Origin: Planococcus sp. PAMC 21323
Lineage (GTDB): Bacteria > Bacillota > Bacilli > Bacillales_A > Planococcaceae
DNA length: 64,000 nt
Assembly: GCF_000785555.1 (NCBI RefSeq)
Contig: NZ_CP009129.1
Coordinates: 2,170,001 to 2,234,000 of the forward strand
Reading direction: 5' to 3'
Positions 3,181-15,557 of the stretch are shown one piece after another. The notes under the pieces are model-generated. The model saw nothing but the letters and a program-made list of their open reading frames with translations. It had not been told where the DNA came from and made no database searches. Both the position numbers and the translations under genes were made by a program. The stretch's first letter is position 1. Each line of letters begins with the position of its first letter.

Positions 3181-3789
3181 TTGGAAAAAAGAGATGCTCG
3201 ACAAATTCTGGAACAAAAAATGAAAGAAACACGTCCACAGTGGCGCCGGAAACAAACTGCACAACCTAAAAAATATAAATCAAGTATGCAAAAGGTAGAA
3301 AACTATGTAGTCTTGGATTTTGAAACTACTGGCTTACGTGCAGGAAATGATAAAATCATTCAAATCGGTGCCGTTAAATACATGAACCATGAGCGGAAAG
3401 ACACAATGTATTTAATGGTCAATCCTCAATGTTTTATTTCTAGTACCATTACTCGTATAACTGGAATTACCAATAAAGATGTAGAAAATGCGCCAGTTAT
3501 TGAAGAAATTGCCCCCGAGCTCGTTGCATTTATTGATGGGTTGCCGATTATTGCACACAACGCACCTTTTGATATGGGTTTTCTCTATGCGCTTGAAGAC
3601 ATTACACCGATTCCCGAATACACAGTAATAGACACCGTTCGTTTAGCAAGAAAAGCGATCACGCAAACACCTAATCACAAACTAACAACCTTGACCGCCT
3701 TTTTAAAACTCGAACACGATGCCCACGATGCACTTGGCGATTGCTTAGCAACTGCAGCCATCTATCAATACTGCTACGACAGGTTATAA
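3181..3789 (+). CDS. DEDDh 3'-5' exonuclease, DnaQ/PolC-type
   Basis: A 202-residue exonuclease-fold protein with all five DEDDh residues: D46 and E48 in VLDFETTGL, D131 in AHNAPFDMG, and H182 and D187 in HDALGD. Proteins of this size act on 3' ends of DNA or RNA, as proofreading epsilon-like subunits or stand-alone nucleases; the substrate cannot be told from sequence. A basic N-terminal tail (residues 1-38, rich in Lys/Arg) precedes the domain. The start is the TTG at 3181 with AAAAGGAGGGG just upstream; the frame is open further 5' but without a site. It is transcribed against its neighbours and followed directly by the repeat array. Confidence 0.88.
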   Translation: MEKRDARQILEQKMKETRPQWRRKQTAQPKKYKSSMQKVENYVVLDFETTGLRAGNDKIIQIGAVKYMNHERKDTMYLMVNPQCFISSTITRITGITNKDVENAPVIEEIAPELVAFIDGLPIIAHNAPFDMGFLYALEDITPIPEYTVIDTVRLARKAITQTPNHKLTTLTAFLKLEHDAHDALGDCLATAAIYQYCYDRL

Positions 3790-4241
3790 GAAAAGCGGAA
3801 GCAGCCGTCTTAGATTCGACGGGCATAAGACACTTCAGCGGAGCGGCATCTTTTCAGCCGCACAGCTGGAGTGACTTATGACCCTAGAATCTGGCTGCTG
3901 GAGCCTGGACATAGAAAAGCGGAGGCGTCTGTTCAGCTCCGACAGGCATAAGACAGACCAGCAGTGTGGCGTTCTTTGCCACGCAGTTGGTCTGGCTTAT
4001 GTCCCGAGGAGCTAGGCGCTGGAGCCTGGACATAGAAAAGCGGAAGTGCCTGTTCAGCTCCGACAGGCATAAGACAGACCAGCAGTGTGGCGTTCTTTGC
4101 CACGCAGTTGGTCTGGCTTATGTCCCAAGGAGCTAGGCGCTGGAGCCTGGAAATAGAAAAGCGGAAGCAGCCGTCTTAGATTCGACGGGCATAAGACACT
4201 TCAGCGGAGCAGCATCTTTTCAGCCGCACAGCTGGAGTGAC
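3790..4241. repeat. Array of four structured intergenic repeats (A-B-B-A')
   Basis: Four head-to-tail units each begin with GAAAAGCGG: unit 1 3790-3913 (124 bp), unit 2 3914-4034 (121 bp), unit 3 4035-4155 (121 bp) and unit 4 4156-4241 (86 bp, truncated). Units 2 and 3 differ at five positions; units 1 and 4 differ at one over the shared 86 bp. The full units end in GGAGCCTGG. Each is a long imperfect inverted repeat: CATAAGAC pairs with the later CTTATG, AGCTCC or AGATTC pairs with GGAGCT or GAATCT, and family B has the apical hairpin GTGGC-GTTCTTT-GCCAC. No plausible protein is encoded. It resembles multicopy intergenic palindromes I associate with Planococcaceae genomes. Confidence 0.85.
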
Positions 4242-13314: not shown

Positions 13315-13772
13315 ATAAAAACCTCCATCGATTTGATAAACCATTCTATTCTATCTTTACCCATTCCTGTATGATCATTAACTTGCTTATATTAGATTTC
13401 CATAATGATTTCATATTTAGATGTAAAACATTGAAAGACAGAAGTCACAACTTACCATTTATAACCATTTCAAAATACCTAACAAAATGACTAATTTGGA
13501 ATTTTTTTAATTTACACATGTTGTAGTAAGCATATTTTCCCTTTTTTTCAAATTCGCCCATTTCTAAAATAAAAAAGCAGTTTATTTTGAAAATTGATGA
13601 TATCATAGATGTAAGATAACAAAAAAGTGAAATATAAGATGTGGAGGCGGCTATTATCGTACTTGGCGATCTATTTTCTTCTTACTTTTCGGATGGCCCG
13701 AGGAAGACGGAAAACAATTCTCCTACATGGCTGACAGAAGTACTGCCCTTACAGAAGGAAAGGAGAGCAGTA
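13315..13772. other. Intergenic region before the HTH-TPR regulator
   Basis: A 458-base AT-rich gap between divergent genes. It holds the SigB-like promoter at 13357-13382 for the minus-strand stress gene. Near the regulator it has a perfect palindrome ATGATATCAT (13597-13606), which could be an operator. A 31-codon frame (13639-13734, starting MWRRLLSYLAIYFLL) and an in-frame GTG extension of the regulator at 13641 both lack a good ribosome site. No confident promoter for the regulator was found. Confidence 0.5.
13357..13382 (-). promoter_or_regulatory. SigB-like promoter of the short 17M paralogue
   Basis: On the minus strand, GTTAAT (13377-13382), a 14-base spacer and GGGTAA (13357-13362), 43 bases before the start codon. 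This is a strong fit to the general-stress sigma consensus. Confidence 0.7.
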
Positions 13773-15068
13773 ATGGATACGGGAATGCGTTTAAAATACC
13801 ATCGATTAAAACAAAAAATTAGTTTAGAAGAATTCTCCTCTGGCATACTGTCTTCCAGAGAGCTGAAGAAAATTGAAAGTGGCGCTAAAGACCCAGCATT
13901 AAAAGACCTCGAAGCTTTATGCAAGAAACTAGCTATATCTCTGGCTCCTAAAGATAATCCAATCGGAAAAGTTCTCGTAAAGAACTTTAAAAACTCTTTA
14001 TTGCATCCTCAAAACAAAGCTGAAATCATGGAGCAGTATAACGATATTCAGGGACATCCCCTATTACATGCAGATGAGGATGTCGAGTTAGAATATAGCA
14101 TTCAACAAATCAGGTATTTTATCATTACCGGAGATTTGGATAGTGCCGAGGAAAAAATTAAAGAAATGGAACGTTTTAAAGAATTTATGAGTCAGGAACA
14201 GTTTTACTTATTCCATAAATACAACGGCAACTATAATTACGTACTCAACGATTTCGAGAAAGCTTTAAAAACTTATTTGGTAGCGGAAAAAATTGCGCCA
14301 AATACCATTTCTGCTTCAGAAATTGGCGACCTTTACTATTCCATTGGCATTTCTAGCACGAAATGCAGAGAAACTGATAAGGCTTTCAAGTATACCGAAA
14401 TGGCTTTAAAAATTTATCAACAAGAGTTTATTCCAAAGCGTATTGTTGAATGTCATTTAAACATCGCAATAACCCATCAGCATTTTGGCAATTTTAAAAT
14501 GTCGATGGATCATTATAAAAACGCTTTAACTATTGGAAATAAATTAGAAATTGATATTTTGAAGTTTACTACTGAATTTAATCTAGGCTATTCGTATTTC
14601 TTGTTCCAAAATTATAAGCTGTCTATTACTCATATGGAAAATTCATTGAAATACATTCACCCAGAATATACTGCTGATCTTTTGTTAAGTTACTGTATTT
14701 TAATTAAGTGTCAATATGAAGTAGGAAACTCTGATGCAGCAAGAGATTGGCTTCGCAAAGGCATGGATATTGTTGAAAACAAAAAGCTGAACATCAATTC
14801 GCCGACTAACCACATATTCAAAGAAGCATATATCGAATTTATATGTTTAGTGCATCTCTTGGATGAAAACTTCAAAGATTTCGAAGATTATGTACTGAAC
14901 CAATTGATCCCAAGCCTTGAAGCTACAGACAATTATTTTGAAAGCGGATATTATTTCGGACATTTGGGTAAGATATATTATGAACAAGAACGCTACAAAG
15001 AATCAGCTGAAATTTTGAACAAAGCAAAAGAATCATATAAGAAAATAAATACATTATTTGGGGAGTGA
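13773..15068 (+). CDS. HTH-TPR (RRNPP-type) peptide-sensing regulator
   Basis: A 431-residue protein with the PlcR/NprR architecture. An N-terminal XRE-type HTH (about 5-58: RLKYHRLKQKISLEEF, SRELKKIESGAKDPALKDLE) is followed by a long all-helical region with recognisable TPR units, such as LYYSIGISSTKCRETDKAF, LNIAITHQHFGNFKMSMD, LGYSYFLFQNYKLSITHM and LGKIYYEQERYKESAEIL. RRNPP regulators bind a short re-imported peptide in the TPR groove and then change DNA binding. AAAGGAG lies seven bases before the ATG at 13773, and the HTH starts there. The very next gene, five bases after the stop, encodes a secreted repeat peptide, the standard partner arrangement. The target genes are unknown. Confidence 0.87.
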   Translation: MDTGMRLKYHRLKQKISLEEFSSGILSSRELKKIESGAKDPALKDLEALCKKLAISLAPKDNPIGKVLVKNFKNSLLHPQNKAEIMEQYNDIQGHPLLHADEDVELEYSIQQIRYFIITGDLDSAEEKIKEMERFKEFMSQEQFYLFHKYNGNYNYVLNDFEKALKTYLVAEKIAPNTISASEIGDLYYSIGISSTKCRETDKAFKYTEMALKIYQQEFIPKRIVECHLNIAITHQHFGNFKMSMDHYKNALTIGNKLEIDILKFTTEFNLGYSYFLFQNYKLSITHMENSLKYIHPEYTADLLLSYCILIKCQYEVGNSDAARDWLRKGMDIVENKKLNINSPTNHIFKEAYIEFICLVHLLDENFKDFEDYVLNQLIPSLEATDNYFESGYYFGHLGKIYYEQERYKESAEILNKAKESYKKINTLFGE

Positions 15069-15073
15069 ATGTA

Positions 15074-15505
15074 ATGAAAAAAGGTATCACTATTCTATTT
15101 TTCTCAGTTCTCGCTATTAGCAGTTTATCTCTTAGTAACAATGTAAATTCTGAAAATGAAGTCGCTGTTCAAGCTCGTGTTCCTGAACCTTGGGCTGTCG
15201 GTACTGAAGTCGCTGTCCAAGCTCGTGTTCCTGAACCTTGGGCTGTCGGTACTGAAGTCGCTGTTCAAGCTCGTGTTCCTGAACCTTGGGCTGTCGGTAC
15301 TGAAGTCGCTGTCCAAGCTCGTGTTCCTGAACCTTGGGCTGTTGGTACTGAAGTCGCTGTCCAAGCTCGTGTTCCTGAACCTTGGGCTGTTGGTACTGAA
15401 GTCGCTGTCCAAGCTCGTGTTCCTGAGCCTTGGGCTGTTGGTACTGAAGTCGCTGTCCAAGCTCGTGTTCCTGAGCCTTGGGCTGTTAAATCTCAACAAG
15501 CATAA
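15074..15505 (+). CDS. Secreted seven-repeat signalling propeptide (putative)
   Basis: A 143-residue precursor. MKKGITILFFSVLAISSLSLS is a Sec signal peptide; after NNVNSEN come seven tandem copies of a 16-residue unit, EVAVQARVPEPWAVGT, the last ending WAVKSQQA. The 14 residues EVAVQARVPEPWAV are identical in every copy. The ATG at 15074 has GGGGAG eight bases upstream, overlapping the end of the regulator gene; a GTG at 15065 overlaps the regulator stop but lacks a site. By analogy with PapR, NprX and Phr, the product would be exported, cut into short peptides, re-imported and bound by the adjacent TPR regulator. Cleavage points and the mature peptide are inference. I do not recognise this propeptide. 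Confidence 0.85.
   Translation: MKKGITILFFSVLAISSLSLSNNVNSENEVAVQARVPEPWAVGTEVAVQARVPEPWAVGTEVAVQARVPEPWAVGTEVAVQARVPEPWAVGTEVAVQARVPEPWAVGTEVAVQARVPEPWAVGTEVAVQARVPEPWAVKSQQA
15158..15487 (+). repeat. 48-bp tandem repeat, seven copies
   Basis: Copies start at 15158, 15206, 15254, 15302, 15350, 15398 and 15446; the last is 42 bp before it diverges. Only three columns vary and all are synonymous: GTT/GTC in VAV, GAA/GAG in PEP and GTC/GTT in WAV. The variants change stepwise along the array (GTC to GTT after copy 3, GAA to GAG after copy 5), as expected from successive duplications. Confidence 0.95.
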
Positions 15506-15514
15506 GTTTATAAT

Positions 15515-15557
15515 AAAAAGAAGGAAGCTGCTCATCTTGAACAGCTTCCTTCTTTTT
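15515..15557. terminator. Bidirectional terminator after the propeptide gene
   Basis: AAAAAGAAGGAAGCTG and CAGCTTCCTTCTTTTT form a 16-bp stem between convergent genes. Confidence 0.9.

Follow-up and report, generated by a model that had tools for sequence, protein, structure and literature searches.

A gene pair in the chromosome of Planococcus sp. PAMC 21323 very probably forms a quorum-sensing cassette of the RRNPP type, shared by Planococcus and its near relatives, in which a peptide encoded in several copies within one precursor is sensed by the adjacent receptor. The window analysed spans 64,000 nucleotides (contig NZ_CP009129.1, positions 2,170,001 to 2,234,000), and all coordinates without a genome identifier refer to it. 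The receptor gene, encoding an NprR-like RRNPP protein of 431 aa, occupies positions 13773..15068 of the forward strand (ATG at 13773, stop ending at 15068). The predicted pheromone precursor gene, encoding 143 aa, lies on the same strand at 15074..15505, with its ATG at 15074. The first-pass annotation had proposed an HTH-TPR regulator followed five bases later by a precursor; the five-base gap between the receptor stop and the precursor ATG was confirmed and the coordinates were exact. A Shine-Dalgarno sequence is present ahead of both starts, and that of the precursor (GGGGAG, 15060..15065, forward strand) overlaps the 3′ end of the receptor gene. The unit is closed by a terminator-like hairpin between the precursor and a convergent gene (15520..15557, no strand assigned), composed of GAAGGAAGCTG / CAGCTTCCTTC with a loop of 11, TTTTT on one side and AAAAA on the other; the terminator scanner did not call it because its loop limit is 8.

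The receptor contains an HTH_3 DNA-binding domain (Pfam PF01381, residues 7-58, 13791..13946, forward strand), scoring 23.3 bits against a cut-off of 23, and the AlphaFold2 model (pLDDT 92.8) places helices at residues 3-53. In the same model residues 102-427 (14076..15053, forward strand) form a TPR superhelix of eight helix pairs, and Pfam matches TPR_12 at 5e-16. Profile searches yielded NprR at 1e-56, RapF at 6e-42 and PlcR at 4e-12, the last over residues 2-213. Among solved proteins, NprR was the nearest by sequence, followed by Rap, and the best 28 matches of a fold search with the predicted model were all NprR or Rap chains, pheromone-bound ones included, in line with a superhelix that has a concave peptide groove. 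The regulator had been assigned to the PlcR/NprR type; profile, sequence and fold uphold an NprR/Rap-like assignment, whereas the PlcR part is not sustained.

RRNPP (RRNPPA) receptors are defined by an N-terminal HTH domain (in all but Rap), five to nine TPRs with a concave peptide groove and a length of 250-500 aa. By sequence and model, the Planococcus protein has the HTH domain, the TPR superhelix and a size in this range, a conserved Asn and an adjacent propeptide gene. Together with the proximity to NprR and Rap and the strict receptor-precursor pairing within the genus, this bears out the RRNPP-type classification. With 143 aa, and as many as 255 aa in relatives, the precursor is longer than the propeptide default of RRNPP_detector (10-100 aa), which is a setting of that tool and sets no biological bound.

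The conserved Asn, N270 (codon 14580-14582, forward strand), lies in an A helix of the TPR superhelix. It does not vary among the 59 receptors compared, which reach from Planococcus to distant Bacilli, and it aligns with N275 of NprR and with the corresponding Asn of RapH and RapI. In Rap proteins this Asn holds the main chain of the peptide in place (Rap3T N226; PMC11343458), and the invariance and the alignment point to N270 as the anchor residue here. Peptide binding by NprR has also been tied to R126, W167 and H201 (PMC4970707). In the alignment, with NprR numbering fixed via Y223A/F225A, by which 5dbk and 4gpk differ, the positions of R126 and H201 are taken by G120 and K197, and the only counterpart of W167 is an aromatic position near F161. 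The receptor may bind its peptide in a mode different from that of NprR, and since R126 and H201 are not kept, we regard it as NprR-like and not as an NprR orthologue. Several receptor columns covary with the pheromone core, such as the acidic D261, E259, E126 and D91 when the core starts with R or K; as candidate specificity residues they were rejected, all of them being confounded with phylogeny.

The closest solved structure by both sequence and fold thus belongs to the NprR-NprX system of the Bacillus cereus group, which shares with the Planococcus pair the HTH domain, the long TPR domain, the propeptide gene adjacent downstream and the anchor Asn. Identity in the TPR region is, however, about 20%, and the PxPW core found here differs from the SSKPDIVG of NprX. 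Members of the NprR subfamily have a second role as Spo0F-binding inhibitors of sporulation. PlcR-PapR likewise combines an HTH-TPR transcription factor with an adjacent precursor, exported by the Sec route in the case of PapR and predicted to be so here. In the PlcR systems studied, the receptor carries five TPRs and PapR is encoded in one copy, whereas the Planococcus receptor, with about eight TPRs, is far nearer to NprR. Rap proteins, in contrast to this receptor, lack the HTH domain and act on protein partners.

The N-terminus of the precursor (15074..15151, forward strand, MKKGITILFFSVLAISSLSLSNNVNS) was recognised by inspection as a putative Sec-type signal peptide region, with a basic start and a hydrophobic stretch that are kept in the orthologues. 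It is followed by a seven-unit array, VAVQARVPEPWAV(GTE), at 15161..15487 of the forward strand, identified by Tandem Repeats Finder (48-bp period, 6.9 copies, 98% match, score 613) and by comparison of the copies. The predicted mature RVPEPW cores start at 15176 and recur every 48 bp. Seven identical 16-residue units had been described; six are indeed complete and all seven VAVQARVPEPWAV cores, spaced by GTE, are identical in protein, but the seventh unit shares only 13 residues and ends in KSQQA instead of GTE. Among the six full units there are four distinct DNA versions and zero amino-acid changes. The array is not a product of chance, since orthologous loci throughout the genus show the pattern again. 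Long repeat ORFs exist in another frame and on the other strand as well; they were rejected as the coding frame, the selection between copies fitting the annotated one. Matches of the precursor to cornifin and other unrelated repeat proteins in Pfam were below the cut-off and were dismissed as produced by the repeats.

Selection on the mature peptide had been proposed from the purely synonymous changes between units, and comparison of copies within the arrays of 39 species supports it: pN was 0.0095 and pS 0.168, giving a pN/pS of 0.057. At the core positions [RK][VIH]PEPW (offsets -2 to +3) no amino-acid differences between copies were found except for 0.8% at E, with silent differences at 7-32% for every position other than W, which is encoded by one codon only. 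The residue after the core W (S, A or F) differs between copies in 5% and the next one in 21%. These boundaries frame the mature peptide as RVPEPW or RVPEPW(S/A), and the mature pheromone is probably RVPEPW(S/A), with both ends placed by conservation alone. Between species, P, P and W of the core are fixed in the counted set, from which one species with the reading VTEPW (L045) was left out.

The ratio of 0.057 and the almost unchanged cores mean that all copies are selected or homogenised together, and homogenisation alone is not sufficient because synonymous differences between copies remain. The same observations bear on the reading of the repeats as a neutral by-product of slippage, with a single copy of any importance and the others carried along as passengers. 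Rapid change of copy number, with 7, 10 and 9 copies in three close relatives (L002-L004), is what slippage or unequal crossing-over would give. However, the low between-copy ratio, the cores nearly invariant in any copy, the silent differences that remain and the maintenance of the multi-copy state across the whole clade of receptors with PxPW cores make this reading very improbable.

The spacers carry a conserved element of their own. In 260 of 262 spacers a [VLFIM]A dipeptide is kept, whose usual place is behind E, Q or D, 1-3 residues ahead of the core; counting distinct spacers only, it occurs in 88 of 90 as against 36 expected on shuffling. We infer that this dipeptide is a candidate protease or processing site.

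It is also unlikely, if slightly less so than slippage, that the precursor acts outside the cell, as a secreted repeat protein or as the source of an antimicrobial peptide, with the HTH-TPR protein merely controlling its expression and perhaps sensing another peptide. Tandem arrays do occur in cell-surface and bacteriocin-like precursors, and the array gave the weak Pfam matches to unrelated repeat proteins mentioned above. The array unit, however, is neither cationic nor strongly amphipathic, and its most conserved piece is a core of six to seven residues, a typical pheromone size. Moreover, the core varies along with the receptor family (PEPW, PQPW, PHPW, PNPW and PPPW), and distant receptors of the same profile are accompanied by ordinary short single-copy propeptides. 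These points favor a pheromone sensed by the adjacent receptor.

The receptor was found at the same place in all 46 Planococcus genomes searched (Planomicrobium included), with 58-94% identity, the best named match being P. halocryophilus (94%), and next to the same upstream general-stress-like gene in every case. At every locus readable past the receptor, a tandem-repeat precursor lies directly downstream; three loci run into contig ends (L033, L039 and L044) and one is masked (L019). The pair is a core chromosomal locus of the genus, and the co-occurrence that the first-pass annotation asked to be sought in related genomes is present. Neither is the repeat gene widespread without a regulator: within the genus the precursor occurs only beside the main receptor or its paralog of 30% identity, which in five genomes is accompanied by arrays of HPNPWS or WPQPWS. 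Copy number ranges from 2 to 14, with 7 typical, and the unit varies between species; assemblies of one to three contigs have 4 to 14 copies, and collapsed repeats may make the numbers from draft genomes too low.

Outside Planococcus, arrays of IIPEPWS (G062) and MYPPPWS (G116) occur in two further genera of the family. The PxPW clade forms a single group (100/100) in the receptor tree and is multi-copy throughout. Over the tree the multi-copy label requires at least three changes, so that gains or losses of arrays occurred several times. A more distant paralog pair, recurrent in the genus, has single-copy propeptides ending in ILPPL, VLPPV or VLPPL. Its kind is represented in the genome of PAMC 21323 by a single-copy RRNPP-like pair (L062, G000:C1:718906-724613, receptor end at about 3236) with the propeptide MNKKFLFLSIMYTGLLSAVVLSGPNVLPPL, ending in GPNVLPPL. 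Distant Bacilli receptors of the same profile mostly have short single-copy propeptides, an exception being a precursor with three copies of SEPDHPKIV. No close relatives were found in phage, viral-contig and plasmid collections, where plasmid matches reached at most about 28% identity. An origin in mobile-element RRNPP systems (AimR arbitrium, phage or plasmid Rap) was rejected on these grounds and on the synteny of the chromosomal locus in 46 of 46 genomes.

In the working model of the cassette, the precursor would be translated just downstream of the receptor gene, from a ribosome-binding site of its own, and would leave the cell by the Sec route. Proteases outside the cell would then cut the spacers, probably near the [VLFIM]-A dipeptides, and yield about seven copies of one peptide with the core RVPEPW(A/S). 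The array would boost the signal yield per precursor. The peptide may re-enter the cell via an oligopeptide permease and bind the concave face of the TPR superhelix around N270. Binding would alter how the HTH domain acts on DNA, most likely in the manner of NprR, and the peptide-bound receptor would probably act on the promoter of the cassette too. It is conceivable, though rather doubtful, that array length serves as a fast-evolving gain control, whereby the copy number (2 to 14) sets the yield per precursor and hence the density threshold, with identical copies tying each one to the receptor. Under such gain control, a change of signal would have to sweep the whole array and the receptor groove, all copies being coupled to the same receptor.

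Alignment of the upstream regions of the 46 genomes revealed a conserved block, AAGCAGTTTATTTTGAAAATTGATGATATCAT (13575..13606, forward strand), which includes an extended -10-like element, TGnTATCAT (13598-13606, forward strand), and is likely the promoter and/or operator of the gene pair. The block occurs once in the genome, apart from one match with three mismatches inside a patatin-like coding gene, and a genus-wide scan found it nearly only at the receptor-precursor locus. A genome and genus scan with the 22-bp upstream block for a regulon with a shared operator returned no site beyond the cassette; since the 22-bp block is nearly confined to its own locus, no regulon can be derived from it.

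Between the block and the receptor ATG, the reading frame is open in 46 of 46 genomes over 44 codons, from a GTG at 13641 to the ATG at 13773 (13641..13772, forward strand), which makes a receptor form of 475 aa possible. The stretch has the consensus xVEAxIIVLxxL...NSPTWMxEVLPxQxERR in the 46 genomes, with a pN/pS of 0.55. Its pS is low (0.27 versus 0.76 in the HTH region), which argues for constraint on the DNA as well. The usual start codon is missing in some species. The leader also holds CTCTCCT, the complement of the receptor Shine-Dalgarno AGGAGAG, with which it could pair in a 7-bp stem according to the alignment. An RNA switch hiding the Shine-Dalgarno was nevertheless rejected, as the leader folded no better than its shuffles (z +0.95). 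Positions 13641-13772 are either a translated N-terminal extension or an RNA-constrained leader.

The first-pass annotation had described one copy as usual for the known partners and likened tandem multi-copy precursors to yeast alpha-factor. Here a correction applies: multi-copy RRNPP propeptides with up to six identical copies have been published for AimR, NprR, PlcR and Rap systems, and large propeptides of the NprR family are often repeated (17/17, up to six copies) (PMC9765709). For Phr, up to eight copies are reported, and Phr105 has two identical copies, both matured and active (PMC11343458). The principle is therefore known, although earlier descriptions of the multi-copy design are limited to scattered examples. 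In the duplicated Rap3T-Phr3T and Rap105-Phr105 systems, several pheromone copies are carried by one exported propeptide and released by extracellular proteases (PMC11343458), and the Planococcus precursor resembles them in its copies and, presumably, in export and release. The studied Rap-Phr duplications reside on phages, whereas the Planococcus family is chromosomal, syntenic and genus-wide. It also differs from NprR-NprX in reaching 14 copies and in having several copies wherever a locus of the genus could be read. The likeness to the yeast alpha-factor precursor, with tandem pheromone copies and spacers in a secreted protein, involves no homology. Alpha-factor passes through the eukaryotic secretory pathway with Kex2-type processing and acts on a surface GPCR.

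Searches of the full-text literature, supplementary tables lying outside their reach, retrieved no RRNPP system described for Planococcus and no PEPW pheromone; on quorum sensing or peptide pheromones in Planococcus they returned nothing beyond an unrelated genome paper. As far as the literature was searched, the family, its peptide and the genus-wide multi-copy state are new, and the copy number is the highest found. With the propeptide limit of 100 aa in RRNPP_detector (PMC10075063), automatic searches would skip most Planococcus members. The family shows that a whole bacterial genus, under strong selection, can be fixed for multi-copy pheromone precursors. Natural variants with 2 to 14 signal copies at a single chromosomal locus make the benefit of extra copies testable, the single-copy RRNPP-like pair of PAMC 21323 can serve as a control from one and the same genome, and RVPEPW(S/A) is a concrete peptide for synthesis.

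Several minor observations were made alongside. At an Indiicoccus locus (L053, G061) two diverged copies (TVPPPF / VTVPPPF) accompany a receptor split by a frame change, which could reflect decay or a sequencing error. In an unrelated Bacilli genome (L182, G614) a nine-copy precursor of SDNSPGIKSLRLA lies downstream of an HTH-TPR receptor, apparently an independent expansion. On a plasmid of Mesobacillus foraminis (L138, 2763-3176), a precursor annotated as a hypothetical protein repeats E(E)LPPPLAP/EEFPPPLAP beside an HTH-TPR regulator. Elsewhere in the window, at 3789-4219, an intergenic 121-bp unit is present in 3.5 tandem copies, and a piece of this unit occurs at least three more times in the genome; it looks like a dispersed repeat element.
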